Positions 11,944 through 58,237 of a DNA stretch of 64,000 nucleotides are shown here, piece by piece (position 1 is the first letter of the stretch; every line of letters starts with the position of its first letter). The translations under genes were made by a program, and so were the position numbers. Source of the stretch: Azoarcus sp. DN11. Its GTDB lineage: Bacteria > Pseudomonadota > Gammaproteobacteria > Burkholderiales > Rhodocyclaceae. The stretch lies in the NCBI RefSeq assembly GCF_003628555.1, contig NZ_CP021731.1, positions 682,001 through 746,000 of the forward strand, written 5' to 3'. The notes beneath the pieces are model-generated. The model saw only the letters and a list, made by a program, of their open reading frames with translations, ran no database searches and was not told the DNA's origin.

Positions 11944-14016
11944 TCAGATCCACTTGAAGTAGGCGGACAGGCCGATGAAGTTGATGTTCTGATTCGCGTT
12001 GCTGTTCGCGGTGGTGCCATCGACGAAGATGTGCTCACCCGTCCAGGTCGAATCGCTCACGTGCCAGCGGTCGTGCACCAGCTGCAGCTTCAGGCCGTGG
12101 TCGCGGGCGAGCGCGTAATCGGCCGTCAGGCTGAGCGTGGTCTGCCGGAAAGAGATGTCCGGCACCGAGGCTGCGCCCACATTGTGCATCCTGAATTCGC
12201 TGCGGTTGTCGGCCCAGCGCAGTTCGGCGTCGAGCGAAAGCTTGGCCGTCGCGCGCACCTGCGCGCGCAGGCCGGCGTTGCTTCCCGCGCTGCGCAGGTC
12301 CGCGCGCCACAGGAACAAGGGAACGCTGTTTTTCCAGCCCATGACCGTGCGCTGGCGCATGCGCGAGTCGTCCTGCGAGACCCACGCGCTGAGCTTGCTG
12401 TCGTCGGACAACGAGTAAGTCGCGTCGACCGAGTACGTCATGGCACTGCCCTTGTCGTTGCCTGCGGGCGAGCCCTTGATCGCGCCGTAGTCGTCGTTCG
12501 AGTACTGCGCAGTGGCTTGCACCGCCAGGTTCTCGCGCGGCGACCAGTCGAGGCTCAGCTTCGCCTTGTCGCGGTTGCGATCCGCCCAGTGGAAGGGGTT
12601 GATGAGGTGCGGGCTCTGGTTGGGCCCGTTGCCGGAGAAGAAATCGTTGAAGCGGTAGCTGCTGGTGGTGTGGAACGAGCCACCGGAGCGGTCGCTGTGG
12701 ATGTAGCTCAGGCTGCCGTTGAGTGTGTCGGAGAGCGAGCGGCGCAGGCCGATACGCGCCGACCATTCGGTCGTCTCCCGGCGCCAGTCGAGCGAGCGGC
12801 TGAGCGGGATCGCACGCGTACGCTCCTCCCATTCCACGCCGCCGAACAGGCTCAGCGATGCGGGCAGGCGGTAGATGCCGTCGAGTTTCGCCGACACCGT
12901 CTTGCGCGAGGTGTCGTTGTTGAAGCCGCTGCCCGTGTAGTTGCGGAACCTGGGGTCGAAGAACAGCCGCAGCGGAGTCTTGTCGTCGCGGTCTTCGTAG
13001 CGCAGGTTTGCGTTCAGGCTCAGCGCCGAGGTCGGGCGCGATGTCAGCCCCATGGTGACGAGCGTGGTGTCGACCTGGCCATCGAGCGAGCTGTGGCCGA
13101 AGGCGCTCGGCAGCGCGAAGCTGTCGTTCTGCGTGCCCCGCGTATAGGAGACCTTGAACATGCCGCGCGTGGTGGGCGAAAAGCGGTACGCGCCCGACAG
13201 GTTGAGGTTGTGGGCCTCGTTGTCCGGTGGCAGCGAAATGCTGTGCGAATTGAACGCCGCTTCCGCACCGAGCGCCCCGTTCAGGTGGAGCAGGCTGTCC
13301 TGGTTGCGGAAGAAGGATCCCAGGTATCCGCCGGACAGTTGCAGGCGGTCGCCGACATAACCGAGGGTCGCCTCGAATTCCTGCGTAGTCTGGTCGATCG
13401 GTTCTGCGGCGAATTTCGGTCCGATGCCGACATCGTAGAAACCGAACTGGCGGTCGCCGTTCTTCCTTTCGTTGCGGAACCGGACCTGGGCGCTCAAGCC
13501 GCCGCCGAGCTGTTTTCCGAGGCCGAGGGAGGTGGTCTCGCGCTTGACTTCCGGGTTGAATGAGTGCGTCGGCCCGCCGATGACGATCGTCTGCTCGGTG
13601 GTGCCCAGCCCGAGAACGGGCGTGGTGAAGGTCAGCGGATCGTGTCGCTGGATCTCGCCGTATTCGAGGAAATACGACCAGTTGCCCTGTTGCTCGTGCT
13701 CGAAGCGCAGGTCGCGATTGTCCAGGCCCAGGTTGCGCCCCTTCAGGCGCAGCCACGTTCCGGTCGCATCGTCGCGGCGGTTGATGTCGACGTTGCCGAG
13801 GAAGTCCGTGTCGCCGGCCTTCTGTCCGGTGAACAGGCCGAAACGGCTTCCGTTCCCGCCGACGTAGCCGGCGCCGACACTCACCGAGCTCTCCGGCCGC
13901 GTCAGCTGCGCGAGCTCTTCGGCGGACATTTCCTGCGCCGACGCCGGACCGAAGGCGAGCAGCATCCCCGCCGCGACGGCGCTCAGGCGGAGGCTGTGCA
14001 TGTGTTGCGTTGTCAT
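11944..14016 (-). CDS. mtoB: MtrB/PioB/MtoB-family outer-membrane beta-barrel
   Basis: The 690-residue product has a signal peptide (cut after about PASAQ, residue 28) and a long run of alternating beta-strand segments, with a length close to Shewanella MtrB. In that family a barrel sheathes a decahaem cytochrome and carries electrons through the outer membrane. Typical family blocks are RFGLFTGQKAGDTDFLGNVD near the N-terminus and the closing INFIGLSAYFKWI. I see no cysteine in the mature chain. It begins 12 bp after the decahaem mtoA-like gene, the standard pairing. No MtrC-like surface cytochrome is present, which favours an Mto/Pio-type system over a Shewanella-type metal reductase. The symbol is by analogy. 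Confidence 0.85.
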   Translation of the reverse strand: MTTQHMHSLRLSAVAAGMLLAFGPASAQEMSAEELAQLTRPESSVSVGAGYVGGNGSRFGLFTGQKAGDTDFLGNVDINRRDDATGTWLRLKGRNLGLDNRDLRFEHEQQGNWSYFLEYGEIQRHDPLTFTTPVLGLGTTEQTIVIGGPTHSFNPEVKRETTSLGLGKQLGGGLSAQVRFRNERKNGDRQFGFYDVGIGPKFAAEPIDQTTQEFEATLGYVGDRLQLSGGYLGSFFRNQDSLLHLNGALGAEAAFNSHSISLPPDNEAHNLNLSGAYRFSPTTRGMFKVSYTRGTQNDSFALPSAFGHSSLDGQVDTTLVTMGLTSRPTSALSLNANLRYEDRDDKTPLRLFFDPRFRNYTGSGFNNDTSRKTVSAKLDGIYRLPASLSLFGGVEWEERTRAIPLSRSLDWRRETTEWSARIGLRRSLSDTLNGSLSYIHSDRSGGSFHTTSSYRFNDFFSGNGPNQSPHLINPFHWADRNRDKAKLSLDWSPRENLAVQATAQYSNDDYGAIKGSPAGNDKGSAMTYSVDATYSLSDDSKLSAWVSQDDSRMRQRTVMGWKNSVPLFLWRADLRSAGSNAGLRAQVRATAKLSLDAELRWADNRSEFRMHNVGAASVPDISFRQTTLSLTADYALARDHGLKLQLVHDRWHVSDSTWTGEHIFVDGTTANSNANQNINFIGLSAYFKWI

Positions 14017-14028
14017 GATGTTTCCCCC

Positions 14029-14973
14029 TTAGCGAACCAGCGAACGATTGACCGAGCTATTCAGCGGGCTGTTGCCACCATGCAGGTTGGTGTGGCAATT
14101 GACACACTGGCGGGCAGCGCCGATATCCGGCTGGGGCAGGAAGGAGGCGTTCGTGCGCAACGACGGCGCGATCCCCTGGTGCGAACCCGGCTCGTGGCAC
14201 TCCTGGCACAGGAAGGGCATCTGCTGCTTGAGCAGGCGGGGATTGGTGCTGCCGTGCGGGTTATGGCAGATCGCGCAATCCTCGGTGACCGGCTGATGGC
14301 TCCACAGGAACGGTCCGCGTTTTTCCGCGTGGCACGAGAAGCAGGTGTCGATCACGGTGTCGCGCGCCATCAGCTTCGGCCCGGCAGAACCGTGGGGGTT
14401 GTGGCAGTCCGAGCAGGCCACCTTGCCTTCCTTGATCGGATGACGCGACGCCTTGTTGATCTCGTTGCGCTTGTCCTTGTGGCAGGTGAAGCACTTCTCC
14501 GGCTGCGTCAGCTTGTCACGCACCTTGTCGTGCTGGGCATGCACCTGGTGGCAGGACGTACAGGCGACGTCTTCCTGTTCGTGCGTGCTGCCTTGCCAGA
14601 GCATGCGCTTCCCGCCGGAGTGGCAGTTCAGGCACTGCGCGTTGCGTTCGGCCACCGGCGTCTTCGACTTCGCGCCGAAGGTCACGGTCGGCTGCGGGCG
14701 CTCGTCGGCCCCGTCGGGAATCCGGATGTGCGTCTCGCTCGCGCCGTGGCACGCGATACAGCTTCCGGTGCGGCCGTCCGCGACGGTGCCGTGTTTCGTC
14801 TTGCCGATATCGTAGACCGGATACGCTTCCGTGCCGTCGTGACAGCGGGTGCACACCTTGTCGTCCTTGAGCACCTTGTCCTTGGCGGCGCCCTCCGGTG
14901 CGGCATGCACATTCGCGACGAAGCCGAGCACCGCGAAGAGCCCGGCAATCACCCATCTCTTTGTTTTAGACAT
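14029..14973 (-). CDS. mtoA: Decahaem periplasmic cytochrome c, MtrA/MtoA (DmsE) family
   Basis: The 314-residue product has a signal peptide (cut after VHA, residue 24) and exactly ten CXXCH motifs: CTRCH, CIACH, CLNCH, CTSCH, CFTCH, CSDCH, CFSCH, CAICH, CQECH and CVNCH. Repeated CHNPHGS blocks and the overall length match MtrA, MtoA and DmsE rather than the longer PioA. In characterised systems the cytochrome sits inside the MtrB-type barrel and forms a haem wire across the outer membrane. It is the third gene of the operon, 58 bp after the NapC/CymA-like gene, with an intercistronic hairpin in the gap. Confidence 0.92.
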   Translation of the reverse strand: MSKTKRWVIAGLFAVLGFVANVHAAPEGAAKDKVLKDDKVCTRCHDGTEAYPVYDIGKTKHGTVADGRTGSCIACHGASETHIRIPDGADERPQPTVTFGAKSKTPVAERNAQCLNCHSGGKRMLWQGSTHEQEDVACTSCHQVHAQHDKVRDKLTQPEKCFTCHKDKRNEINKASRHPIKEGKVACSDCHNPHGSAGPKLMARDTVIDTCFSCHAEKRGPFLWSHQPVTEDCAICHNPHGSTNPRLLKQQMPFLCQECHEPGSHQGIAPSLRTNASFLPQPDIGAARQCVNCHTNLHGGNSPLNSSVNRSLVR

Positions 14974-46595: not shown

Positions 46596-48320
46596 TCAAT
46601 ACGTCTCGGGGTTGTGATTGTCATTGTGGCAGCTCATGTAGCAGCGGCCGTGGCCGGCCGAGGTGCGCTCCCATTTCAGCAGGCCCGACGAATTGGGTTT
46701 CACGATCGAGATGTCCCAGTTGATCAGGCGGCTGTTGTTCGTCACGTTGCCCTGGGTCGAGGAAATGCCGTGCGGGTCGTGGCAGGCGCTGCAGGGCGTG
46801 CGGATGCTCACGACGTGCTTGCGGTGCACGGTGCTCGACACGCTGGTGCTCGAGTTGAGCAGGGTGTTGCGGTCGTGGCACTTGTAGCACAGCGCGTAGG
46901 CGCTGGCGCTTTCGGTCGTGAAGTCGGCGGTCAGGTACTGGCGTTCGAGCAGCGGAGCGAACTTCGAGCCGTGCGGGCCGTTCGGGCCGACGCCGCCCGC
47001 GCCGGGGCCGGCGTCGTTGTTGTGGCAATCGCTGCACTTGATGATGCTGGCCGTGGTCCACGGCGCCATCAGGTCGGGGACGCTGGTGCCCTTGCCCGCG
47101 CCGGCGACCGGGTGATACGACGGGTTCGACGTGCTGAATTCGAGCCGTGTGTTGGTCTGGACGATCTGGCGGGCGATACGCGCCGCAGGCTTGCCGGGGC
47201 TGTCGGCATGGCAGCGGAAGCATAGCTGGTATTCCGCGGTGGCGGGTTCGACCGCGGTGCCGCCGCTCGTGACCCCGCGCACGGCGGTGAGGGAGCCGGG
47301 CAGGGCGCCGGCCGAGCCCGATTTCGCCGCGTGGGGGTTGTGGCAGTCGGCGCATTCGACGTGGCGGGTCTGCGACACCGTCGGTTCGGCGGCGTCGTGG
47401 ACGCCGGTGGTCGTTGCGACCGGGTGGATCGAGGTCTTGGTGAACTCCGACTTGATGTTTTTCGCCGCGACGTTGCCGTTATGGCAATTGGTGCAGTTGT
47501 CCTCCTCCTTCGCGTAATTGAGCAGCCACTTGCGGCCGCCGGCCGAGTGCGGGCGGTGGCAGTTCTCGCAGCCGTTGGCGGCGACGGTGGTGCCGCTGGT
47601 GTGCGGCCACGGGCTGGCGCCGACGCCGTTCCAGGTCGCCGTCGACAGCTTGTGGCTGCTGGCGCTCCACTGCGCCGGCTGGTGGCAGGTCTGGCACAGC
47701 GCGGAGGCCGCGTTCGGCATCACGAGGAACTTGCCGTTGCTGTCGTCGTGGGCGTCGTGGCAGGACGTGCATTGCAGCTTGCCGCTCGCGTCGAGGCGCA
47801 CCTTGCCGGTCAGCGTCGCCGGGTCGGCGAGTTCGCCGCGGGTGGTGGCCAGCGCCGCGTTGTACAGGATCGACACCGGGTGGTCGTCGGACAGGTCGGT
47901 GCCGAGGTTGCTGCGCCCGGCGGGCATCGTCGTCACGCCGCCCGCCATCGCCGTGACCTGGCTGAGGCTGAGGAGGTCGCCGAGGGCGATGGTGCCGTCG
48001 TGACAGGAGAGGCAGTCGAGCGAGGCGCCGTCCGGCTGGCCCGGGGCGGCCTTGGCGGTGGAGCTCGTGTAGGGGGTGTAGCCGCCGGTGCGCGCACGGC
48101 GGTTCCACAGCGGTTCGCTCGGCGAGGCGTTGTGGGAGATGTGGCAGAAGACGCACACCTGTGTCTCGCTCGCCGCCTTGACCGTTCCTGGCCCGCTCAC
48201 CGACAGGTTGTGCCGGCTCGAGACGATGCCGGCGCCGGCGGGGAGGGCGGCGAGGAGCAGCGTCGCGGCGAGCGCGATCGCCACCGGCAATCCGGCGAGG
48301 GAGCGGGTCACGGCGATCAT
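46596..48320 (-). CDS. Twelve-haem secreted cytochrome c
   Basis: The 574-residue product has a signal peptide (cut after AGA, about residue 30) and twelve haem sites: eleven CXXCH (CVFCH, CLSCH, CTSCH, CQTCH, CENCH, CTNCH, CADCH, CFRCH, CSDCH, CYKCH, CSACH) and a last CX3CH, CYMSCH, near the C-terminus. The first four haems with CLSCHDGTIA and SNLGTDLSDDHP match the tetrahaem cytochrome encoded 4.3 kb upstream in the same operon, so an ancestral domain was duplicated and extended. No lipobox is present, so it is periplasmic or released rather than lipid-anchored. It overlaps the NHL-lipoprotein stop by 4 bp. Probable electron carrier with the adjacent barrel; partner and acceptor unknown. 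Confidence 0.85.
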   Translation of the reverse strand: MIAVTRSLAGLPVAIALAATLLLAALPAGAGIVSSRHNLSVSGPGTVKAASETQVCVFCHISHNASPSEPLWNRRARTGGYTPYTSSTAKAAPGQPDGASLDCLSCHDGTIALGDLLSLSQVTAMAGGVTTMPAGRSNLGTDLSDDHPVSILYNAALATTRGELADPATLTGKVRLDASGKLQCTSCHDAHDDSNGKFLVMPNAASALCQTCHQPAQWSASSHKLSTATWNGVGASPWPHTSGTTVAANGCENCHRPHSAGGRKWLLNYAKEEDNCTNCHNGNVAAKNIKSEFTKTSIHPVATTTGVHDAAEPTVSQTRHVECADCHNPHAAKSGSAGALPGSLTAVRGVTSGGTAVEPATAEYQLCFRCHADSPGKPAARIARQIVQTNTRLEFSTSNPSYHPVAGAGKGTSVPDLMAPWTTASIIKCSDCHNNDAGPGAGGVGPNGPHGSKFAPLLERQYLTADFTTESASAYALCYKCHDRNTLLNSSTSVSSTVHRKHVVSIRTPCSACHDPHGISSTQGNVTNNSRLINWDISIVKPNSSGLLKWERTSAGHGRCYMSCHNDNHNPETY

Positions 48321-49354
48321 GCAGCCCCGCCCAGATAGCGCAGCACCTGAACGCGCCGGTTGTACGAGTCGGCGACATAGATGTAGCCGTCGGGGGCGAC
48401 GAAGATGCCGGCCGGCAGCCAGAAATCGCCGCGCTCGCGCCCCTGCTGGCCGACCGGCAGCAGGAAGCGCCCGGAGCCGTCGAAGATCTGCATGCTGTGG
48501 AGCAGGGCGTCGACGACGTAGATGTGACCGTCGCGGTCGGTCGCGACGCCCTTCGGTCGCGGCGTGTCGCCGGGAACGTCGCCGGAACGGCCGAAGACGC
48601 CGGCGACGCGGCCGTCTGCGTCGAGGATCTGGATGCGGAAGTTGAGCGAATCGGTCACGTACAGGCGGCCGTCGCCCCCGCGCGACAGCGCCGTCGGGAA
48701 ATTGAACTCGCCCGGGCCTTCGCCGCGCCGGCCGATGCTCGTCCGTAGGCGCAGCTCGCGGTCGAACACCCGGATGCAGTGGGCGCCGGTATCGACAACG
48801 AGGAGGTGCCCCGCCGCGGGGTCGAAGGCGATGCCGGTCGGCTGGACCGGCGCGGTGTCGAGCGCGAGCGGTGCGGCGGTCCGCTCACCGGGCTTGATCA
48901 CCAGGACGCGCGCGAGCCGGGAGTCGGTGACGTACACCTCACCCGCGGGGCCTTCGGCAAGCCCCACGGGCGAGGGCAGCGGCGCGCCGCCCGGTCCGCG
49001 CACGAGGGCGTAGCCGCTGCCGAGCGGGTCGAAGCGGTGCACGCCCTGCACGCCCGGGTCCGCGACGTAGAGCACGCCCTTGACCGCGACGACGGCCATC
49101 GGGCGCACCATGCGGGACTCGTCGGCGCCGAACAGGAGATCCTGCATGCGTTCGAGAAGGCTCCGGGTGATATCCAGATCGGCAGGCCCGGCGATGCTGC
49201 GGACGTAGGCGATGCGCGCGGTTTCCGGCGCGGGCGGCCAGACGAGCGGCGGGCCTTCGGGAGCTTCGGGCCGGCTGCCGGTGCAGCCCGCGAGGGCGGT
49301 GACGAGTGCGAGGAGGAAAGCCCTCGCGACGATGGCAAGACGGTCGTGTGCCAT
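48317..49354 (-). CDS. NHL-repeat beta-propeller lipoprotein (second of two)
   Basis: The 345-residue product has a lipobox (ALAGC, Cys26 region; +2 residue Thr, so outer-membrane sorting) and about six NHL repeats, such as GHIYVVDALLHSMQIFDGSG and GYIYVADSYNRRVQVLRYLG at the end. These fold into a six-bladed propeller used for protein contacts. It resembles the NHL lipoprotein at 51424-52578, including the PETARIAYVRSIAGPADL start. It sits 2 bp after the barrel gene and overlaps the 12-haem gene by 4 bp, suggesting assembly or docking of the cytochrome on the outer membrane. The start at 49354 is chosen for the signal sequence. Confidence 0.85.
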   Translation of the reverse strand: MAHDRLAIVARAFLLALVTALAGCTGSRPEAPEGPPLVWPPAPETARIAYVRSIAGPADLDITRSLLERMQDLLFGADESRMVRPMAVVAVKGVLYVADPGVQGVHRFDPLGSGYALVRGPGGAPLPSPVGLAEGPAGEVYVTDSRLARVLVIKPGERTAAPLALDTAPVQPTGIAFDPAAGHLLVVDTGAHCIRVFDRELRLRTSIGRRGEGPGEFNFPTALSRGGDGRLYVTDSLNFRIQILDADGRVAGVFGRSGDVPGDTPRPKGVATDRDGHIYVVDALLHSMQIFDGSGRFLLPVGQQGRERGDFWLPAGIFVAPDGYIYVADSYNRRVQVLRYLGGAA

Positions 49355-49356
49355 CG

Positions 49357-51402
49357 TCAGAGATCCCGTCGCAGGCTGACCTGGAACAGCGTATGGCTGC
49401 GCTCGAACCCGCCCTGCGTCTCGCGTCCGTGCGCGAGACGTGCATTCATCGCCAGCTTGCGCTCGCGCCACTGTGCGTTGATCGCGTTGTCCACGCGGCA
49501 GCGCACCGTGGGGCCGCCACGGTCGCATTCGAAATTGCGCACCGCCGACACGTCGACACCCATCCAGCGCGTCGAAAAGCGCAGGCCGTAGCCGCGCAGG
49601 TCCATGTCCTGTGCCGAGCTGGCGTAGTCCATCGTCATTCGGTGCAGCGTCACGCCGACGTTGCCGAGATCGAACAGCGGTTCCTCGGTCTGCAGGTACA
49701 GGTCGGCGGCGTTGCGTACGAGCGGGCTGATCGGATCGACGATGCGTTCGCGCTCGACCGTCGCGCCGGCCGAAAGCGGGACGCCGGCCGCGCTGAACGG
49801 CAGGTCCGTGCGCAGGCCGTAAAGCCGGCTGCGCGAGTCGCCGAGCGCAAAGGTGGGCGTTCCGGACAGGACTTCCACCGTCGAGCGCGATTCGCGCAGG
49901 TAGAGGCTCAGGCGCGGGGACAGGTTCCAGCCGAGGTTGAAGGTCTGGTCGGTTTCCGCGCTGGCGAAGGTGCCGCCGAGGTCGTACGCGTAGTCGACCA
50001 GCACGTCCTCGCCGTCGAGGATGCTGCCGCCGATGAGGCGCTGCAGGCGCGTGGTCTGTCCGACCGTGGTGAGCGTGTAGTCGATGTTTTCGACATAGAC
50101 CTGCGAGCGCGTCAGGTTGCTGACGACGACGCTGCCGGCGACGATGCGCGGCTGCGACAGTGCGCTCGGCGAGGTTCCGCCGAGGATCGTGCGCTCGCCG
50201 ATCGCGCGCGCGTCGGACGCCTGTGCCCGCTGGCTGCGCTGGTCGTGGCGCACCCGGTAGCTCGCCGTCAGGGTGCCGAGCGGCAAGGCCTGCTTGTGCC
50301 GCACCATCGCGTCGACGCCGCGGTCGCTCACCGAGAAGGGGCCGGCCTGCTGCGTCTCGATGCGTCCGCCGGCCGACAGCTCCAGCTCCTTGTCCGGCGA
50401 CCAGGCGACGCCCGTGGAGGCGCTTTGCGTCACCGCCGCACGGTCCCCGTTGTCGTTGTTGCTGTAGTGCGCGGTGCCGAAGCTGGTGAGTGCGTCGGAA
50501 TGCTTCATGCGCAAGTCGAGGAGCAAGTTCAGGTCGGACTGCTGCGGCATCGCCCGCCCATCGACCACGAAGTCGTGCCGGTTGAGCGACACGAGATTGA
50601 GCAGCTCATGCTCGCCGTCGGACCCGAAGGGCAGGCGCGTGTCGATGTCGAGGCTCCGGCTGTCCGACGTCGACGACTGGATCGGCAGACTGGTGCTGCC
50701 GCTCAGCGATTCCTGGCGGACGGCCTGGAACTGGATCTGCGTCGCCCCCTGCTTGCCGATGTCGCGCGAAAGGCGCAGGTTCAGCTGGTCGGTGCGGTCG
50801 TGCATCACGCGTTCGTCGCTGCGGCCATTCGATTCCGAGCGCGTCAGTTCGAAGCGCAGCGGCGTCGGCAGCGCGCCCGCGGTCGCCGCGACTTCCATGC
50901 CGTAGCGCGAGGTCTCCTGCTGCAGGGTCTGTCCGGGGGCGATCGACAGCACCGGATTCAGGTGCTCGTAGAACAGCGCGCCGCTCACCGGCTTGCCGCG
51001 GAGGAAGTTCGCGCGCCCGACGAGGTTGTACAGCACGCCGCGCGACTGCGTCGTGCTGCCGTCCGTCTCGAGCGAGCCGGCCTGCAGGATCGGCCCGCCG
51101 CCGATGTCCAGCGTCAGGAAGTTCGGATGATAGACGTAACTGTGCGTCATCAGGAAGACTTCGTTCCGCCAGTCCGAGTCGCCCTGCGTCGAGCGCGTCA
51201 CGCCCGCGGGGCCGGCCTGGCGCGTCGCGTCGCGGTTGCCGAGATAGTTCGTCGACACGTGACCTTCAACATCCGTCAGGTTGAACAACGCGACCTCCTG
51301 CGCCGCGGCGCCCGCGCCGAAGCCGGCGAGCAGCGACACCAGCGCGCGCCGGGCCTGTGTTCGCGCCGGCCGGAACTTCGCCGCGTCGGCGCATCGTCGC
51401 AT
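49357..51402 (-). CDS. Predicted outer-membrane beta-barrel of the cytochrome operon
   Basis: The 681-residue protein has a signal peptide (cut after GAAAQ, about residue 35) and then a continuous pattern of short amphipathic beta strands and turns to the end, as in large outer-membrane porins. Two Cys (ECDRGGPTVRCR) near the C-terminus may form a loop disulfide. It is not clearly MtrB/PioB by sequence, though similar in size to that family. It lies between two NHL-lipoprotein genes (21 bp and 2 bp gaps) and near two cytochromes, the setting expected of a porin-cytochrome conduit. Function as an electron conduit is inference. Confidence 0.75.
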   Translation of the reverse strand: MRRCADAAKFRPARTQARRALVSLLAGFGAGAAAQEVALFNLTDVEGHVSTNYLGNRDATRQAGPAGVTRSTQGDSDWRNEVFLMTHSYVYHPNFLTLDIGGGPILQAGSLETDGSTTQSRGVLYNLVGRANFLRGKPVSGALFYEHLNPVLSIAPGQTLQQETSRYGMEVAATAGALPTPLRFELTRSESNGRSDERVMHDRTDQLNLRLSRDIGKQGATQIQFQAVRQESLSGSTSLPIQSSTSDSRSLDIDTRLPFGSDGEHELLNLVSLNRHDFVVDGRAMPQQSDLNLLLDLRMKHSDALTSFGTAHYSNNDNGDRAAVTQSASTGVAWSPDKELELSAGGRIETQQAGPFSVSDRGVDAMVRHKQALPLGTLTASYRVRHDQRSQRAQASDARAIGERTILGGTSPSALSQPRIVAGSVVVSNLTRSQVYVENIDYTLTTVGQTTRLQRLIGGSILDGEDVLVDYAYDLGGTFASAETDQTFNLGWNLSPRLSLYLRESRSTVEVLSGTPTFALGDSRSRLYGLRTDLPFSAAGVPLSAGATVERERIVDPISPLVRNAADLYLQTEEPLFDLGNVGVTLHRMTMDYASSAQDMDLRGYGLRFSTRWMGVDVSAVRNFECDRGGPTVRCRVDNAINAQWRERKLAMNARLAHGRETQGGFERSHTLFQVSLRRDL

Positions 51403-51423
51403 CCCTCAATCCCCTTCGCCCCC

Positions 51424-52578
51424 TCAGCGGGCGGCGAGGGCCGGCCCGGCCGCGGCGGCAGCCGGATAATCCATGCCGTTCATGCTGCCGAAGGCGAACA
51501 CGTCGACCTTGTTGGGCCCGAACTGGCTCGCCACGAGCACCAGATACTCCACCTTGAAGCCCGGCGCGACGAACTGGCGGAAGGCCTCGATGCCCTCGTA
51601 GCTCACCGTGACGCCCGCGGGCAGGCTCAGTCCTTCCGCTCCTTCGCCGGCCTGGCCGAAATCCATCAGGATGCGGCCGGTGGCGTCGAAGATCTGGACG
51701 TTCTCGAACGCGGCGTCGCCGACGTACATGCGACCCTCGCGGTCGATCGCGATGCCCTTGGGGCGGGCGAAGCTGCCCGGCACCGAGCCGACCGCGCCGT
51801 AGGTGCGCACGGGTTTGCCTTCCTGGGTGAAGCGCTGCACGCGGTAGTTGCCGGTCTCGACGACGTAGAGGTCGCCGTCCGTGCCGAGTGCGACGTTGGT
51901 CGGGTGGAACAGCTCGCCGATCTCCGAGCCCGCCTGCCCGAAGGTGAACAGGCTGCGGCCGGAGCGCTTGTCGAGCACATGCACCTGATGATGCGTGATG
52001 TCGGTGACGTACAGCCGCTCGCCGACGATGGCCAGGTCGATCGGCTTGAACTGGCCCTGGCGGCCGTAGGCGGCGACGAAGCGGTCGTCGCGGTCATAGA
52101 CGAGGACCTGCTCGCGCCCGCCGTCGGTGACGTACTTCATACCGTCGCTGTCGATGCGCACGTTGAGCGGCTGCTTCATGCGTCCGCCGCCGACTCCCGC
52201 GACGAGCGAGAAGCGCCGCTGCGCCATGTCGAACACGGCCAGCCCGGGGGCGCGGCTGTCGGCGACGTAGACCTTGCTGCCGGTCACCGCCACGCCATAG
52301 GGCTGGACCAGCTGATGTCGTTCGCCTTCGTTACCGAGGATGAATTCGGCGAACTTGCCTTTCTGCGCGGCAAGGTCGCGCTCGCCGGCAAGCGTCGTCA
52401 GGTACTGGATACGCGGCGGGTTCGGCAGGGACGGATAGAACACCGCCGCGGCAGCGTCCGCGGCCTGTGCCGCGGCGGGTTTGCTCGGCGTGGAGACGCA
52501 GCCGGCGAGCGACAGCGCGAGCAGGGTCGCGGTTGCAGCGGGCAGGAGGCGGCGGAAGAAGGGAAGGGCGTGGTTCAT
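51424..52578 (-). CDS. NHL-repeat beta-propeller lipoprotein (first of two)
   Basis: The 384-residue product has a lipobox (LSLAGC, about residue 26; +2 Val) and six NHL-type repeats, for example LYVTDITHHQVHVLDKRSGR and RMYVGDAAFENVQIFDATGR. After the propeller a segment of about 60 residues (EAFRQFVAPGFKVEYLVLVA) is not found in its paralogue at 48317-49354. The propeller would sit in the outer membrane or periplasm as a scaffold. It is the second gene of the operon, 77 bp after the tetrahaem gene. Confidence 0.85.
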   Translation of the reverse strand: MNHALPFFRRLLPAATATLLALSLAGCVSTPSKPAAAQAADAAAAVFYPSLPNPPRIQYLTTLAGERDLAAQKGKFAEFILGNEGERHQLVQPYGVAVTGSKVYVADSRAPGLAVFDMAQRRFSLVAGVGGGRMKQPLNVRIDSDGMKYVTDGGREQVLVYDRDDRFVAAYGRQGQFKPIDLAIVGERLYVTDITHHQVHVLDKRSGRSLFTFGQAGSEIGELFHPTNVALGTDGDLYVVETGNYRVQRFTQEGKPVRTYGAVGSVPGSFARPKGIAIDREGRMYVGDAAFENVQIFDATGRILMDFGQAGEGAEGLSLPAGVTVSYEGIEAFRQFVAPGFKVEYLVLVASQFGPNKVDVFAFGSMNGMDYPAAAAAGPALAAR

Positions 52579-52655
52579 GATCGGCTCGTGACGATGGCGG
52601 GGGCGTGCGCCGCCGCCCCGCCGAAGCGCCGGGGGCGGCAGCCGTATGCGCAGGG

Positions 52656-53321
52656 TTACTTGTTGTGGCAGTCGAGGCAGATCTTGCTGCCGGCTTGCGT
52701 CACCTTGACCAGGCCGCTGCCTTTGCCGCCGACGGTGAAGGTGTTATGCACGTCGTGGCAGGAGCCGCATTCCATCTTGCCGCCGAAGAGGAGCACGGCG
52801 CTGATCGTGCCGGTCTTGGTCTGCGGTGCGGTGCCGATCGTCACGGACTTCGTGAGCGGATCGTGCAGCGATCCGTTCGACGTCGCCAGCGCGCTGTCGT
52901 AGGTGAAGCCGATCGGGTGGGACTTCTTCAGGTCGGTGCCGATGTTGCTGCCGGCCGCAATCATCGTCGTGCCGGTCGTGCCGCCGAAGCTGTCGACCGC
53001 GATGGTGCCGTCGTGGCAGGAGAGGCACAGTTTCGACGTCCCGCCGGGCTGGGACACGGTCGCCTGCAGCGTGGCACTGCTGTAGAGGCGGTAGGCGGCC
53101 GTCGACAGCGTGTGATTCCACAGCGGCGCATCGGCGACGCTCGTGTCGGACTTGTGCGGCGCGTGGCAGGCGACGCAGATGCGCCCGCCGGACCAGTTCA
53201 GCGCGGAGAAATCGTGCGCCGACCCGGTGATCGTGCCTGCCCAGCCGACCTGCGCCGCCAGCATTGCAACGCCGCCCACCAGCCATCCCGCGGCTTGCCC
53301 GCGAAGCTTCAAATACCCCAT
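52656..53321 (-). CDS. Tetrahaem secreted cytochrome c
   Basis: The 221-residue product has a signal peptide (cut after GWA, about residue 28) and four CXXCH motifs: CVACH, CLSCH, CGSCH and CLDCH. The spacing and the CLSCHDGTIA and SNIGTDLKKSHPIGF blocks match the first four haems of the 12-haem protein of the same operon. It is probably a soluble periplasmic carrier. It is the first gene of the minus-strand operon; its start is 65 bp from a Fur-box-like palindrome and 244 bp from the divergent dihaem-b gene. Confidence 0.88.
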   Translation of the reverse strand: MGYLKLRGQAAGWLVGGVAMLAAQVGWAGTITGSAHDFSALNWSGGRICVACHAPHKSDTSVADAPLWNHTLSTAAYRLYSSATLQATVSQPGGTSKLCLSCHDGTIAVDSFGGTTGTTMIAAGSNIGTDLKKSHPIGFTYDSALATSNGSLHDPLTKSVTIGTAPQTKTGTISAVLLFGGKMECGSCHDVHNTFTVGGKGSGLVKVTQAGSKICLDCHNK

Positions 53322-53369
53322 CCCCTTTCCCCCTGAATTGCGTTGAATGGCGCCGTTTGCGCCCGGTTG

Positions 53370-53375
53370 TTATTA
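53370..53375 (-). promoter_or_regulatory. Candidate -10 element for the tetrahaem operon
   Basis: Read on the minus strand this is TAATAA, about 50 bp before the tetrahaem start and next to the Fur-box-like palindrome. A clear -35 box is not seen. Confidence 0.3.
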
Positions 53376-53385
53376 CAAATGAAAT

Positions 53386-53400
53386 TGCGAATGATTCGTA
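53386..53400. promoter_or_regulatory. Fur-box-like palindrome between the divergent cytochrome operons
   Basis: TGCGAATGATTCGTA is a 7-1-7 palindrome with one mismatch. It keeps the AAT-N-ATT centre of Fur boxes and resembles the GCGAATGATTCNCAT form often seen in GC-rich proteobacteria. It overlaps the probable promoter of the tetrahaem operon and could also act on the divergent operon. Confidence 0.45.
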
Positions 53401-53564
53401 TTTGTGATTGAATATCGCAAAACCTGAATGCGATGTCAAGCGGCATTCTTGATGCCATAAGCATGATGTCGGCGATGGATCATCGCGCAAAGCCGCACCG
53501 GAACGGGGATCCGTGTGGATGAGAAATCGATGGGTGCAGATCTTTTCAATGACAAAGGATTGAT

Positions 53565-54455
53565 ATGGAGTTGTCCGCGGTCGGTCCCGCAACGCCTTCG
53601 ACGGCTTCCGCCGGCTTGACGATGCCTTTCGGAGCTCTGCGCACCGCCGCGCTGCGGCTCTCCGCCGCGGCCGTGATCGCGGCGCTGATCGGGGCGGGCA
53701 TCTGGGTCGCTTTCCACGAGCCGTACACCGCCGGATCGCCGCTCGGCTACAACCTGGGGCTAGTGGGCGCGGTGCTGATGCTCACGCTGCTGCCTTACGC
53801 GCTGCGCAAGCGCCTGCGTTGCCTGCGAAGCCTCGGCACGATGCGCGGCTGGTTCCTGTTCCACATCGCGGCGGGGCTGTTCGGGCCCTTGCTGGTGCTG
53901 TTCCATTCGACCTTCCGCATCGGCTCGTTCAACGGCGGAGTTGCGCTCGCGAGCACGCTGCTGGTGACTTTCAGCGGCATCGTCGGGCGCTTCCTGTATC
54001 GCAAGGTGCACCGCGGCCTGTCCGGCGCCCGCGCGACGCTGAAAGAACTGGAAGGCACGCTGCAACAGCATCTGGACGCGCTGCAGCCGCACCTGCAGGC
54101 GCTGCCGGCAATCGGTGACGACGCCCGGCGCTATATCGATCACGCGACCGCGCAGCCCGGCAGGCGTTGGCAGCGCGCCATGCACTTCGTGTCGCTCGGC
54201 GGGCGCCGCCACCTCGTCCGTCGACGCATCCGCCGCGTCGTCCGCGCGAGCAGCGTGCGCGCGAACCCGGCAGGGCGTCACCAAATCACCCAGCTCCTGC
54301 ACACGATCGACGCCGCCACTGCGATTGCGCAGCGCACCGCACAGTTCACGACCTATGAGCGGCTGTTCGCACTGTGGCATGCGATCCACATCCCCTTCCT
54401 GTTCCTGCTGGTGCTTTCCGCCGTCGTACATGTGATCGCGGTACATGCGTATTGA
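53565..54455 (+). CDS. Inner-membrane dihaem-b protein, NOX/ferric-reductase-like
   Basis: The 296-residue protein has five predicted membrane helices at about residues 32-50, 62-80, 95-114, 125-145 and 270-293. Helix 3 has His100 and His114, and helix 5 has His275 and His289: two His-X13-His pairs, the pattern that holds two stacked b haems in NADPH oxidases, ferric reductases and cytochrome b. No FAD/NAD domain is fused; a separate flavoprotein is encoded two genes downstream. A soluble, helical insertion of about 120 residues lies between helices 4 and 5. I do not know a named family. The role inferred is electron transfer across the inner membrane. It overlaps the 18-haem gene by 11 bp, and AAGGA precedes the ATG. 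Confidence 0.7.
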   Translation: MELSAVGPATPSTASAGLTMPFGALRTAALRLSAAAVIAALIGAGIWVAFHEPYTAGSPLGYNLGLVGAVLMLTLLPYALRKRLRCLRSLGTMRGWFLFHIAAGLFGPLLVLFHSTFRIGSFNGGVALASTLLVTFSGIVGRFLYRKVHRGLSGARATLKELEGTLQQHLDALQPHLQALPAIGDDARRYIDHATAQPGRRWQRAMHFVSLGGRRHLVRRRIRRVVRASSVRANPAGRHQITQLLHTIDAATAIAQRTAQFTTYERLFALWHAIHIPFLFLLVLSAVVHVIAVHAY

Positions 54456-55980
54456 GGGCATGCTCGGCCGCGTCGCGGCCCTGGTGGTGCTGTGCTTGGT
54501 GCTCGGTGCAGCGTCGGCATGGGGGCAGTCGCTGGAGTCGGTGGTCATGCCGGGCGCCGTGATCAAGGGGCACGCGGACGTCGAGCACGAATGCGGCGAA
54601 TGCCACGTGCGCTTCAGCCCGAGCTCCCAGCCGCAGCGCTGTCTCGCGTGCCATCGCGACGTGCGCGCCGACGTGCGCGACGGTGCGGGCTACCACGGGC
54701 GCATCAAGGAAGAGCAGTGCCGCCGCTGCCATACGGACCACAAGGGGCGCGACGCGAAGGTGGTCGTCCTCGACGAGAAGAAGTTCGACCATCGCCAGAC
54801 CGATTTCCAGCTGCGCGGTGCCCACCGGCGCGAGGCGTGTTCGGGCTGCCACCGCACGGGCCGGAAATACCGCGACGCGCCGCAGAACTGCTACAGCTGC
54901 CACCGCGGCAACGACAAGCATCGCGAAGGCCTCGGCCAGCGCTGCGAAAACTGTCACGTCGAGGACAACTGGAAGGTCGCGCGCTTCGACCACGGGCGCA
55001 CGCGTTTCCCGCTGCTGAGCCGTCATGCCCGCGCGCGCTGCGCCGATTGCCACGTCGACGAGCATTACGTCGGCACGGCGCGCGACTGCGTGTCCTGCCA
55101 CCGCAAGGACGATACGCACAAGGGACACAACGGCCCGCGCTGCGAGAGCTGCCACACCGAGCAGGACTGGAAGGCGACGATCTTCCGTCACGATCGCGAC
55201 GCCAACTATGCGCTCCTCGGCCGCCACCGCACGATCGAATGCACGGCCTGCCACCGCGCGCCGCTGTATGCCGAGAAGCTGCCGACGCAATGCTTCTCGT
55301 GCCACCGCCAGGACGATTCCCACAAGGGCGTGCTGGGCGCGATGTGCGCGACCTGCCATAACCCGGAAGGCTGGAAGAGCGGGCGCTTCGACCACGACCT
55401 CAACACGCGCTTCGCACTCAAGGACAAGCACCGCAGCGTCAAGTGCGAGAGCTGCCACAAGGACCCCGGCATGCGCGAGAAGCCCGCGCTCGAATGCGTC
55501 GGTTGCCACTTGCGCGACGACCGCGAACGCGGCCACCAGGGGCGCTACGGCGGGCGCTGCGCGGCGTGCCACGTGGAGCAGGGCTGGCGGACGATCGTCT
55601 TCGATCACGAGCGCGACACCAAATTCCAGCGCACCGGTCGCCATCGTGCCGTGAAGTGCGACGCCTGCCACCGCGACGGCCCGTTCCGCGCCAAGACCGA
55701 CGACCGCTGCCACGCCTGCCACAAGGGGGACGACATCCACTTCGGCAGCTTCGAGCAGAAATGCGACACCTGCCACCTGCCCGACGACTGGCGCAAGATC
55801 CTGCGCGCGGCGACGGACAGGTTCTGCCGCGGCGGCGCCGAACCGGGTGCGCATCGGCGCGACGACGACCCACCGAAGGCGGCGTTCTGGATTCCCGCCT
55901 GCGCCCCGGTGAACGACCTGCCCGCGCGCCCCGGCCGCCGCGACGACGGGCGCACCTCCGATGCCGGACGCCGACCATGA
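54445..55980 (+). CDS. Eighteen-haem tandem-repeat cytochrome c
   Basis: The 511-residue product has a signal peptide (cut near residue 27) and 18 CXXCH motifs, whose first Cys are at residues 50, 66, 92, 132, 149, 167, 199, 215, 233, 266, 283, 301, 334, 351, 372, 405, 422 and 440. Five tandem units of 66-71 residues are marked by F-D/R-H at 114, 181, 247, 315 and 386, each with a W-K/R-x-x-x-F pattern, a RH dipeptide and three haems. The C-terminal 50 residues are haem-free and highly charged. It is likely a long periplasmic haem wire. The gene is translationally coupled to both neighbours (11-bp overlap before, 4-bp overlap after). An alternative start is the ATG at 54460. Confidence 0.88.
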   Translation: MRIEGMLGRVAALVVLCLVLGAASAWGQSLESVVMPGAVIKGHADVEHECGECHVRFSPSSQPQRCLACHRDVRADVRDGAGYHGRIKEEQCRRCHTDHKGRDAKVVVLDEKKFDHRQTDFQLRGAHRREACSGCHRTGRKYRDAPQNCYSCHRGNDKHREGLGQRCENCHVEDNWKVARFDHGRTRFPLLSRHARARCADCHVDEHYVGTARDCVSCHRKDDTHKGHNGPRCESCHTEQDWKATIFRHDRDANYALLGRHRTIECTACHRAPLYAEKLPTQCFSCHRQDDSHKGVLGAMCATCHNPEGWKSGRFDHDLNTRFALKDKHRSVKCESCHKDPGMREKPALECVGCHLRDDRERGHQGRYGGRCAACHVEQGWRTIVFDHERDTKFQRTGRHRAVKCDACHRDGPFRAKTDDRCHACHKGDDIHFGSFEQKCDTCHLPDDWRKILRAATDRFCRGGAEPGAHRRDDDPPKAAFWIPACAPVNDLPARPGRRDDGRTSDAGRRP

Positions 55981-57278
55981 AAGACAGCCTGATCTGGACG
56001 CTGTACGCGTCGCCCCTCATCATCGCCCTGGCCTACCATTTCGCACAGCGTACCGGCCGCGAGGCACGCTCGAAGGCGGCGCTGGAGGAAGCGCTGCAGG
56101 CCGGCATGGCCGAGCCGTCGAGCCGCTACCCGGTGGTCGATCCGGCGGTGTGCATGGGCGGCGGCGCCTGCGCGCGTGCCTGTCCGGAAGAGGCGATCGG
56201 CTTCGTCGGCGGCAAGGCGCATCTCGTCGACCCGGCGGCCTGCATCGGCCACGGCGTCTGTGCGCCGGCCTGCCCGGTGGAGGCGATCACGCTCGTGTAT
56301 GGCACTGCCAAGCGCGGCATGGACATCCCGCAGGTCGCGCCGAGTTTCGAGACCAACGTGCCGGGCATCTTCATCGCCGGTGAGCTGGGCGGCCTCGGGC
56401 TGATCCACAACGCCATCGACCAGGGCCGTCTCGCGATGGAATCGGTCGCGAAGAGGCGGGCCGAGGGCGAGCTGCTCGACGTCGTGATCGTCGGCGCCGG
56501 CCCGGCCGGGCTTGCGGCAACACTGGGCGCGATGGAGAAGAAGCTGCGCTTCGTCACGCTGGAGCAGGAAAACGCGCTCGGCGGCACCCCCAATCATCGC
56601 TTCCCGCGCAACAAGCTCGTGATGACCTACCCGGTGACGCTGCCGCTCGTGGGCAAGCTGAAAGTGCGCGAGATCCTCAAGGAAACCTTGCTCGGCCTGT
56701 GGCAGTCCGCGGCCGACCGCGTGAAGATGCCCATGAACTACAACGAACGCGTCGAGCAGGTGACGCCGCTCGACAAGGGCTTCGTCGTGCGCACCAACCG
56801 TGCCGAATACCGCACCGCCAACGTGCTCCTGGCGCTGGGCCGCGGCGGCACGCCGCGCAAGCTGGGCGTGCCGGGGGAAGATCTGCCCAAGGTCGTGTAC
56901 CGCCTGACCGATGCCGAGCAATACCGCGGCCAGGCCGTGCTGGTCGTGGGCGGCGGCGACAGCGCGATCGAAGCGGCCGTGTCGCTCGCGGCCGAGCCCG
57001 ATACGCGGGTCACGCTGTCGTACCGCGGCGACGCGTTCGGCCGCGTCAAGCCGAAGAACCGTGACCGCCTCGCCGAGGCCGAGGGCGCCGGGCGGCTGAC
57101 CGTCGTGCTGAACTCGACCGTCACGCTCGTCGAAGCGGATCATGTCGTGCTCGACCACAAGGGCGAGAGGCTCGCGCTCGACAACGACATGGTCATCGTC
57201 TGCGCGGGCGGCATCCTGCCCACGGCGATGCTCAAGGCGATGGGAGTCGAAGTCGAGACCAAGTACGGCAGCGCGTGA
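55977..57278 (+). CDS. Membrane-anchored FAD/NAD(P) oxidoreductase with ferredoxin-like domain
   Basis: The 433-residue protein has an N-terminal hydrophobic helix (about residues 5-22), a two-cluster ferredoxin-like domain and a thioredoxin-reductase-type domain. Its Cys motifs are CMGGGACARACP (Cys59, 65, 69) and CIGHGVCAPACP (Cys89, 95, 99). In both, the second Cys of the usual CXXCXXCXXXCP is replaced (Gly, His), as in the [3Fe-4S] site of seven-iron ferredoxins. The FAD site is DVVIVGAGPAGLAATLG, and a second dinucleotide site is VLVVGGGDSAIEAAVS. The likely role is electron transfer from NAD(P)H to the dihaem-b protein on the cytoplasmic side. It starts inside the last codons of the 18-haem gene. 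Confidence 0.85.
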   Translation: MKDSLIWTLYASPLIIALAYHFAQRTGREARSKAALEEALQAGMAEPSSRYPVVDPAVCMGGGACARACPEEAIGFVGGKAHLVDPAACIGHGVCAPACPVEAITLVYGTAKRGMDIPQVAPSFETNVPGIFIAGELGGLGLIHNAIDQGRLAMESVAKRRAEGELLDVVIVGAGPAGLAATLGAMEKKLRFVTLEQENALGGTPNHRFPRNKLVMTYPVTLPLVGKLKVREILKETLLGLWQSAADRVKMPMNYNERVEQVTPLDKGFVVRTNRAEYRTANVLLALGRGGTPRKLGVPGEDLPKVVYRLTDAEQYRGQAVLVVGGGDSAIEAAVSLAAEPDTRVTLSYRGDAFGRVKPKNRDRLAEAEGAGRLTVVLNSTVTLVEADHVVLDHKGERLALDNDMVIVCAGGILPTAMLKAMGVEVETKYGSA

Positions 57279-57400
57279 CGCACCTGCCGACCGGCGCCGA
57301 TGCGTAGGCGCTCGCCACCACGGCGTCTTACAATGCGGGTTACGCGAGCGACTTGCGCCCGGAGCGCGAGCGATCGGTCGAACCGTCACCGGCAGCCGCG

Positions 57401-58237
57401 ATGAAACTCGATGAACTTTCCCTGTTGCGCTACTGCAGCCTCGCGATGACCGCCGCCGAGGAGGGGCGCCCGTATGTCGTCGAATCCGACGGCCTGCGCT
57501 CGCTGCACTTCGACGCCCTCACGGTGCAGAGCCAGATGCGCCTGGACGATCCCGGCGCGCTCGCGATCGACTACACGCGCACGATGATGGGGTTTCTGCT
57601 CTTCAACCCCGAACCGTGCGACATCGTGATGATCGGACTCGGGGGCGGCTCGCTGGCGAAATACTGCCTGCGCACCTTGCCACGCGCCCGCTTCACCGCC
57701 GTCGAGATCGATCCCGACGTGATCGCGCTGCGCGACGCCTTCGGCATCCCGCCCGACAGCGAGCGCTTTCGCGTGGTGTGCGCGGATGGCGCGACCTACG
57801 TGCGCACACGCGCACGCGCGCCGGATGTGCTCCTGATCGACGGCTTCGACCGCGGCGGCCAGCCGGAGCGCCTGTGCTCGGCGGGATTTTATGACGACTG
57901 CCACTCGCTGCTCGCCGACGGCGGCGTACTGGCGGTCAACCTCTGGTCCGGCGACCGCCGCTACGGGCTGTACGCGTCGCGCATCCGCGACAGCTTCGAG
58001 GATCGCTTCGTCGCGATCGGCGCCGAGGAGGACAGCAACCGCATCGCATTCGCCTGCAAGGGGCGCGGATTCCCGCCCCGGCGTTCGCAGCTCCTGGAGC
58101 GGGCGCGAAAGCTCACCGCCCATCACCCGATTGGGATAATGTCGACGGCGCAGCGCATCCAGAGCCGTCTCGAGCGGCGCGAGCGCTACCGGCCCGACCT
58201 GTGGGACGAGGACGGACGAAGAACGCGGGGGGCGTGA
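57401..58237 (+). CDS. Spermidine synthase-like SAM-binding protein
   Basis: The 278-residue product has the Rossmann-fold core of polyamine aminopropyltransferases: DIVMIGLGGGSLAKYC (SAM/dcSAM site), FTAVEIDPDVIAL, and DVLLIDGFDRGGQP at the catalytic loop, then LADGGVLAVNLWS. Proteins of this reduced type often are not true spermidine synthases; I leave the reaction open. It is 122 bp after the flavoprotein gene and may be read from the same promoter, but a link to the cytochromes is not shown. Confidence 0.75.
   Translation: MKLDELSLLRYCSLAMTAAEEGRPYVVESDGLRSLHFDALTVQSQMRLDDPGALAIDYTRTMMGFLLFNPEPCDIVMIGLGGGSLAKYCLRTLPRARFTAVEIDPDVIALRDAFGIPPDSERFRVVCADGATYVRTRARAPDVLLIDGFDRGGQPERLCSAGFYDDCHSLLADGGVLAVNLWSGDRRYGLYASRIRDSFEDRFVAIGAEEDSNRIAFACKGRGFPPRRSQLLERARKLTAHHPIGIMSTAQRIQSRLERRERYRPDLWDEDGRRTRGA

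Follow-up and report, generated by a model that had tools for sequence, protein, structure and literature searches.

Does a haem wire that spans the cell envelope draw its electrons from the quinone pool, or from NAD(P)H in the cytoplasm? This question is raised by a locus of Azoarcus sp. DN11 that lies in a stretch of 64,000 nucleotides (contig NZ_CP021731.1, positions 682,001 to 746,000), called the window here. Three genes of this locus form an operon. Gene 1 encodes an inner-membrane protein, gene 2 a periplasmic multihaem cytochrome, and gene 3 an iron-sulfur (Fe-S) protein with a domain for flavin adenine dinucleotide (FAD) and nicotinamide adenine dinucleotide or its phosphate (NAD(P)). 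A first reading of the locus, made from the sequence only, had described the three as a relay resembling a split NADPH oxidase (NOX) and had found no named system with this arrangement. The second statement holds for a part of the system. Genes 1 and 2 are already known: they encode two components of PCC3, its inner-membrane protein and its periplasmic cytochrome. PCC3 is a predicted porin-cytochrome extracellular conduit to which He et al. 2017 (PMC5566968) gave the name. Two things look new: gene 3 as a strict partner of gene 1, and the joining of the PCC3 inner half to a divergent gene cluster that resembles the undecahaem electron transfer (Uet) complex.

PCC3 is composed of four parts: a porin, an extracellular cytochrome, a periplasmic cytochrome and an inner-membrane protein (PMC5566968). 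The same list is given in PMC10734462 (Hoover et al. 2023), PMC12442390, PMC8788666 and PMC12016527, and no flavoprotein is named for PCC3 in the passages of these five descriptions that the analysis covered. He et al. noted the HX13H pairs of the inner-membrane protein, likened the protein to ferric reductases and quinone-active cytochromes b, and proposed that it exchanges electrons with the quinone pool (PMC5566968). In the published model, quinones link PCC3 to metabolism; a flavoprotein that strictly co-occurs means that NAD(P)H may feed the wire without an intermediate. If it is fed by NAD(P)H, the energy yield, the likely direction of flow and the targets for deletion all change.

Co-occurrence of gene 1 and gene 3

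A survey of named genomes returned 222 relatives of gene 1, of which the best 80 loci were kept. Nineteen are of the window's kind, with Uet-like genes (type A), and the other 61 are referred to as type B. Gene 3 lies within the fetched stretch at 66 of the 80 loci, that is, at all 19 of type A and at 47 of the 61 others. Twelve of the 14 loci without gene 3 in the stretch were searched genome-wide (L079 and L112 fell outside this search), and each of these 12 genomes has one strong copy elsewhere. With two further loci and two controls added, one strong gene 3 was found in 16 of 16 genomes.

The two genes were also searched for in three samples of whole genomes. The order was sampled with 399 genomes; 21 of them have strong gene 1 (E <= 1e-36), and the identical 21 have gene 3 (E <= 1e-50, the cut in all three samples). 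The remaining 378 have gene 3 in none at this cut and a distant gene 1 relative in 15. The chance that random placement yields two matching sets of 21 among 399 is ~10^-34.7, a value to be read with the kinship that makes these genomes non-independent. In the 101 closest relatives, strong gene 1 is found in 10 and gene 3 in the same 10. In 219 genomes of the phylum, strong full-length gene 1 and gene 3 share the same three genomes; G613 belongs to another class and has gene 3 ~4 kb from gene 1, and G511 belongs to another order and has gene 3 on another contig, beside a porin match. Over these overlapping samples, 29 distinct genomes carry both genes. Gene 3 is found to be a strict partner of strong gene 1 in the genomes searched, at the thresholds used, and is a candidate marker gene for PCC3. 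The relay of the sequence-only reading depended on recurrence of its gene set in other genomes, and the set does recur far beyond chance.

The threshold for gene 1 was set after the results, at a gap between E-values (1e-36 versus 3.5e-18 in the 399 genomes; 1.4e-43 versus 1.8e-14 in the 101), and the distant gene-1-like matches were kept apart, as were those in five of the 219 and seven of the 101 genomes. Only the best first-look candidates were scored in the genome search (four of 37 for gene 3 in the window genome), and weaker paralogues may escape it. Four genomes of the 219 have a partial gene 3 match, beginning at residue 117 or 162-165, and no strong gene 1. In two of them, G471 and G593, a distant gene-1 homologue stands beside the flavoprotein (27 and 63 bits). 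There is no gene-1 homologue near the match in G477 or near the second copy in G471, with G675 outside this check.

Properties of the three proteins

Gene 1 of the window was aligned with 29 relatives, which makes 30 sequences; the 29 come from the 120 listed among 350 relatives found. Few of those 120 are named, and all of the names are 'hypothetical' or 'uncharacterised'. Invariant in the alignment are H100, H114, H272, H275, H289 and H294, as well as W96, W271 and S137-G138-x-x-G141; the two His-X13-His pairs that the sequence-only reading had placed in helices 3 and 5 are among these residues. Family-averaged hydropathy gives five hydrophobic cores, with centres at 33-45, 67-73, 104-111, 125-137 and 274-287. 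The charge pattern assigns two parts to the cytoplasm, the loop that joins helices 2 and 3 and a stretch of 122 residues that separates helix 4 from helix 5; by hydropathy and charge together, the chain starts inside and ends outside. An AlphaFold2 model (predicted local distance difference test, pLDDT, 81.1; predicted template modelling score, pTM, 0.66) places the helices at residues 22-51, 59-83 (broken), 93-114, 122-153 and 235-295. These agree with the hydropathy, and the model shows additional helices in the 122-residue cytoplasmic part. This topology predicts two pairs at matching depths: H100 with H275, closer to the cytoplasm, and H114 with H289, closer to the periplasm. The relay of the sequence-only reading depended on this placement, and the prediction puts all four His within the membrane. 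The protein ends directly after helix 5 and has no fused FAD/NAD(P)H domain. Two gene-1 homologues, at L030 8754-9911 and L112 1423-2346, have no multihaem cytochrome within the fetched stretch; these are possibly relics or serve other uses.

Between the two membrane proteins, the cytochrome of gene 2 carries the 18 CXXCH motifs that had been counted before, with 23 further His in its 511 residues, which are enough in number for bis-His ligation of all haems. The haem count of gene 2 in type A loci is 18, 21 or 24, in steps of three, and the protein is homologous to the periplasmic cytochromes of type B loci, most of which have 24 haems.

Gene 3 is a membrane-anchored Fe-S/FAD/NAD(P) protein, as the sequence-only reading had it, with one amendment: both Fe-S motifs are without the usual second Cys, and motif 2 has an invariant His instead. 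Three Cys per motif are present in 64 of 64 aligned rows, and the N-terminal hydrophobic anchor in all 12 N-termini compared. The NAD(P)H/FAD fold is closest to YpdA and thioredoxin reductase and is shared with the YpdA/Bdr family. The flavin-side Cys is replaced, with GAGPAG in gene 3 at the place of GGGPCG in the aligned YpdA, and A177 is nearly invariant in the family alignment. We take the Cys of GGGPCG to be the active-site Cys of YpdA. The FAD/NAD(P) domain also looks circularly permuted, with its C-terminal FAD segment moved to the N-terminal side.

The outer-membrane half

The three-gene extent of the sequence-only reading stands as a recurring set and falls short of the whole, as five divergent genes at 46596-53321 are to be counted to the system, which appears to have eight genes. 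The Uet complex is found in Tenderiales and some Gallionella (original description by Eddie et al. 2022, via PMC10734462). Matched by its description there, the five genes correspond to an 11-haem cytochrome (UetJ), a tetrahaem cytochrome (UetA), a presumed outer-membrane barrel (UetC) and two NHL proteins (UetHI), of which the one at 51424-52578 has a signal that carries the lipobox-like LAGC. The UetB isomerase and the UetDEG trihaem genes are absent from the cluster, among open reading frames (ORFs) of at least 90 amino acids at 46596-57278, all of which belong to the eight genes or are their shadows, and gene 2 could take the place of the Uet trihaem carriers. No Candidatus Tenderia name stands among the 120 matches listed out of 5883.

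The tetrahaem protein is a homologue of the nanowire cytochrome OmcE (7tfs; E 4e-20, residues 37-221). Its four motif His and five other His are invariant in 20 rows, the non-motif His being enough for bis-His ligation, and we infer that it polymerises into an extracellular filament. The N-terminal domain of the 11-haem protein matches OmcE more strongly than the tetrahaem protein does (7tfs; E 2.3e-30, residues 12-213), and the two proteins share 40% identity over 186 columns. Of the 11 CXXCH His, eight align invariant in 15 rows, and seven haems lie beyond the OmcE-like domain. At the outer membrane, the filament could start from the 11-haem protein or be capped by it, a concrete idea for how a nanowire could be attached there. 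The 681-residue protein has no Pfam family; it is conserved in type A loci, and a relative with 96% identity bears the UniRef name of the outer-membrane family TIGR03016. The eight-gene set occurs in culturable aromatic-degrading bacteria and joins an inner-membrane module to a nanowire-type cytochrome. Aromatoleum toluvorans (L036) and A. tolulyticum (L045) each have the full set.

The Uet-like half is present at 19 of the 80 loci, and none of these 19 matches the PCC3 porin, for which one porin from L115 was the query. Of the 61 loci without the Uet-like half, 34 have more than 9 kb downstream, and the porin is matched in 31 of them. In the gene 1 tree, the Uet-like loci, the window and L044 stand on one side of a branch with 100% support in the Shimodaira-Hasegawa-like approximate likelihood ratio test (SH-aLRT); the tree was built by a quick method with SH-aLRT only and is unrooted. 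The thresholds scored L044 as type B; this locus, however, lies at the end of a contig, keeps a remnant of the tetrahaem cytochrome and falls in the type A group. The inner module occurs with two kinds of outer-membrane gene set, a swap. Uet-like clusters without gene 1 nearby are found at L183 and L184. The one at L183 (6440-17546) is of the same family and has extra cytochromes of seven, nine and five haems, with no gene 1 in the fetched 20 kb.

Remote homologues beside other flavoproteins

He et al. 2017 stated that other membrane proteins of this kind mostly have another redox protein in their cluster (PMC5566968). At L256 (7943-13030) and L257 (7955-13025), a protein of ~820 residues with an FAD/NAD(P) domain, two domains binding cyclic nucleoside monophosphate (cNMP) and an Fe-S domain is followed by a gene-1-like protein and a 10-haem cytochrome. 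The gene-1 match at L256 is weak (27 bits), yet both WX3HX13H motifs are there. L154 belongs here by a partial match. A second kind of flavoprotein stands at L255 (3568-7135), where a 703-residue FAD_binding_6/NAD_binding_1/Fer2 protein precedes a gene-1-like protein and then a cytochrome of six or seven haems; L240 belongs here by similarity. These two further kinds of flavoprotein suggest that the design arose more than once.

Comparison with known systems

Gene 1 resembles its PCC3 counterpart in its ~300 residues, its five helices, the SGXXG motif on helix 4 and the WX3HX13H motifs on helices 3 and 5, and gene 2 resembles the PCC3 cytochrome in being adjacent, large and periplasmic, with ~28 residues per haem. 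The window differs from PCC3 in that no PCC3 porin is found among its ORFs at 46596-58237 and no giant cytochrome stands downstream of gene 2; none with more than 24 haems does so in the 19 type A loci. It also differs in that the operon includes gene 3, and the route proposed here has NAD(P)H, and not quinone, as its origin. PCC3 and UetJ have been reported in the same Leptothrix genomes, though not as one locus (2026 paper, PMC13386937). In contrast to OmcE, the tetrahaem gene here stands with an inner-membrane module of PCC3 type, and the host is a betaproteobacterium.

NADPH oxidases and ferric reductases, to which He et al. compared the membrane protein (PMC5566968), pass electrons from a flavoprotein to two b haems stacked across a membrane and held by His pairs on helices 3 and 5, and the proposed relay would function in the same way. 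The system in the window differs from them in its separate flavoprotein chain of thioredoxin-reductase fold and in its five helices, with no sequence or profile kinship detected. From YpdA, a bacillithiol disulfide reductase, and from thioredoxin reductases, gene 3 differs by the absent active-site Cys, the extra Fe-S domain and the membrane anchor.

Proposed electron route and direction

The best explanation for the eight genes is envelope-spanning electron export from NAD(P)H to a nanowire, to which we assign a probability of about 0.5. Held by an anchor in the inner membrane, the cytoplasmic domains of gene 3 would oxidise NAD(P)H at the FAD and pass single electrons through two Fe-S clusters to a cytoplasmic-side b haem of gene 1 (H100/H275). 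The electrons would then move to a periplasmic-side b haem (H114/H289), from which the 18-haem rod of gene 2 would take them and bridge the periplasm. Gene 2 would deliver them to the 11-haem cytochrome held in the 681-residue barrel, whose OmcE-like N-terminal domain would be the base for the polymerising tetrahaem subunit and so for the extracellular wire. The NHL propellers may help in assembly or anchoring. These parts probably form a physical route, whichever the direction, and the odds that outward is the main direction are about even. Outward flow is favoured by general bioenergetics, since NAD(P)H donates electrons at low potential and the membrane potential helps electrons out of the cytoplasm. 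In Sideroxydans ES-1, expression of both PCC3 clusters is lower with Fe(II) than with thiosulfate, and the authors regard them as taking no part in Fe(II) oxidation under the conditions used, which fits outward flow.

Several observations weigh against export from NAD(P)H. Kinship of gene 1 with the membrane domain of NADPH oxidases was not recovered: neither Pfam nor NCBIfam gave a family at E 0.1, a profile comparison with 20 members of PF01794 gave E 0.16, profile comparisons with ferric reductases and cytochrome b561 gave no match, and a fold search gave no significant match, which leaves gene 1 untied to any known di-haem fold. The split relay of the sequence-only reading takes its support from the co-occurrence of gene 3 with strong gene 1 and from the flavoproteins that adjoin some remote homologues. 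Among the 15 distinct remote places of gene 1, a flavoprotein query matched at three (L154, L239/L255 and L240) and not at the other 12 (L033, L034, L035, L153, L155-L159 and L241-L243), where a neighbour may be missed, as most of the 15 stretches have ~1.5 kb upstream. The flavoprotein itself led to L256 and L257, which therefore give no measure of frequency. The missing second Cys allows more than one cluster type and potential for gene 3, a three-Cys site predicting either [3Fe-4S] or a non-Cys-ligated [4Fe-4S]; a quinone site on gene 1 is possible, and the 681-residue protein is presumed to be a barrel by position, size and database name. Gene content, conservation, the co-occurrence of genes 1 and 3, the homologies and the predicted topology come from computation, and we infer the binding of haem, flavin and Fe-S clusters as well as the protein contacts, polymerisation, outward direction and acceptor. 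PCC3 clusters also occur in Fe(II) oxidisers, and Sideroxydans CL21 cells capable of iron oxidation show a significant rise of the inner-membrane gene of copy 2 of PCC3 and a fall of copy 1, which partly fits uptake.

The last two points belong to a reading in which the same parts work inward, from extracellular donors through the nanowire and gene 1 to gene 3 and on to NAD(P)+ or a ferredoxin-like acceptor. PCC3 and Uet have been discussed for electron uptake in iron- and cathode-oxidising bacteria (PMC5566968, PMC10734462), and genes 1-3 are present in Gallionella and Gallionellales genomes (L061, L072). By general bioenergetics, though, reduction of NAD(P)+ from mid-potential donors against the membrane potential needs an energy source that is not evident in the gene set, and the lower expression of both ES-1 clusters on Fe(II) speaks against uptake as well; we consider inward flow rather unlikely. 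The published model offers a different donor. Gene 1 would then be a quinone-coupled cytochrome b, in line with the likeness drawn by He et al. 2017 (PMC5566968), and gene 3 might add another point of entry or serve as redox sensor or as maturation or repair reductase. That gene 3 lies off-locus or on another contig in some type B genomes agrees with this, since it need not be a stoichiometric subunit, but its presence in every genome searched with strong gene 1, and the flavoproteins directly before some remote gene-1 homologues, make the quinone model unlikely. The fold of gene 3 resembles thiol-disulfide reductases and would also suit redox housekeeping, in which the relay would hold multihaem cytochromes or thiols of the periplasm in reduced form, for instance during cytochrome assembly, and would play no part outside the cell. 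With the flavin-side Cys of YpdA replaced and the module adjoining two kinds of outer-membrane gene set, such a role is very improbable.

Export from NAD(P)H can be put more broadly, and more tentatively. The PCC3 inner half, genes 1-3, may be a universal, quinone-independent NAD(P)H:multihaem oxidoreductase, split NOX-like, able to fit outer-membrane conduits that are unrelated to one another. Aromatoleum and its relatives would combine it with a Uet-like conduit with an 11-haem base of an OmcE-type nanowire, which would give the cytoplasmic NAD(P)H pool a direct connection to a filament outside the cell. We hold this wider version to be somewhat short of an even chance.

Organization of the locus and neighbouring genes

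Genes 1-3 are joined by overlaps of 11 and 4 bases in the ORF list of the window, in agreement with the sequence-only reading. The coordinates of the system are given in Table 1. A promoter-like site lies in the divergent intergenic region at 53439-53411 on the minus strand, by consensus match only (n=1).

Table 1. Features of the proposed eight-gene system, with positions in the window.
Feature	Position	Strand	Length	Description
Gene 1	53565-54455	+	296 aa	Inner-membrane protein of five helices, two WX3HX13H motifs ('IMP' of PCC3); proposed transmembrane electron carrier with two b haems
Gene 2	54445-55980	+	511 aa	18-haem periplasmic cytochrome, six three-haem modules; Pfam Cytochrome_C7/Cytochrom_c3_2
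Gene 3	55977 (ATG)-57278	+	433 aa	N-terminal anchor, ferredoxin-like domain, YpdA/thioredoxin-reductase-like FAD/NAD(P) domain
Intergenic region	53322-53564			Divergent, between outer-membrane operon (-) and inner-membrane operon (+)
Tetrahaem cytochrome, UetA-like	52656-53321	-		OmcE homologue; probable nanowire subunit
NHL-repeat propeller, UetH/I-like	51424-52578	-		Pfam NHL; lipobox-like LAGC by eye
Presumed outer-membrane barrel, UetC-like	49357-51402	-	681 aa	Position, size, database name
Second NHL-repeat propeller, UetH/I-like	48317-49354	-		Pfam NHL; lipobox-like LAGC by eye
11-haem cytochrome, UetJ-like	46596-48320	-		11 CXXCH; proposed trans-outer-membrane wire and nanowire base

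Gene 3 is followed at 57398-58237 (+) by a polyamine aminopropyltransferase-like gene (251.5 bits against an NCBIfam cut-off of 304). It adjoins gene 3 only in A. toluvorans (L023/L036) among the loci listed and is probably outside the system. The window also encodes an outer-membrane protein of the MtrB/PioB family at 11944-14016 (-; TIGR03509, 343.5 bits) and a DmsE-family decahaem cytochrome at 14029-14973 (-; TIGR03508, 288 bits), both above their NCBIfam cut-offs. This pair, at 11944-14973, is a separate Mtr/Mto-type conduit.

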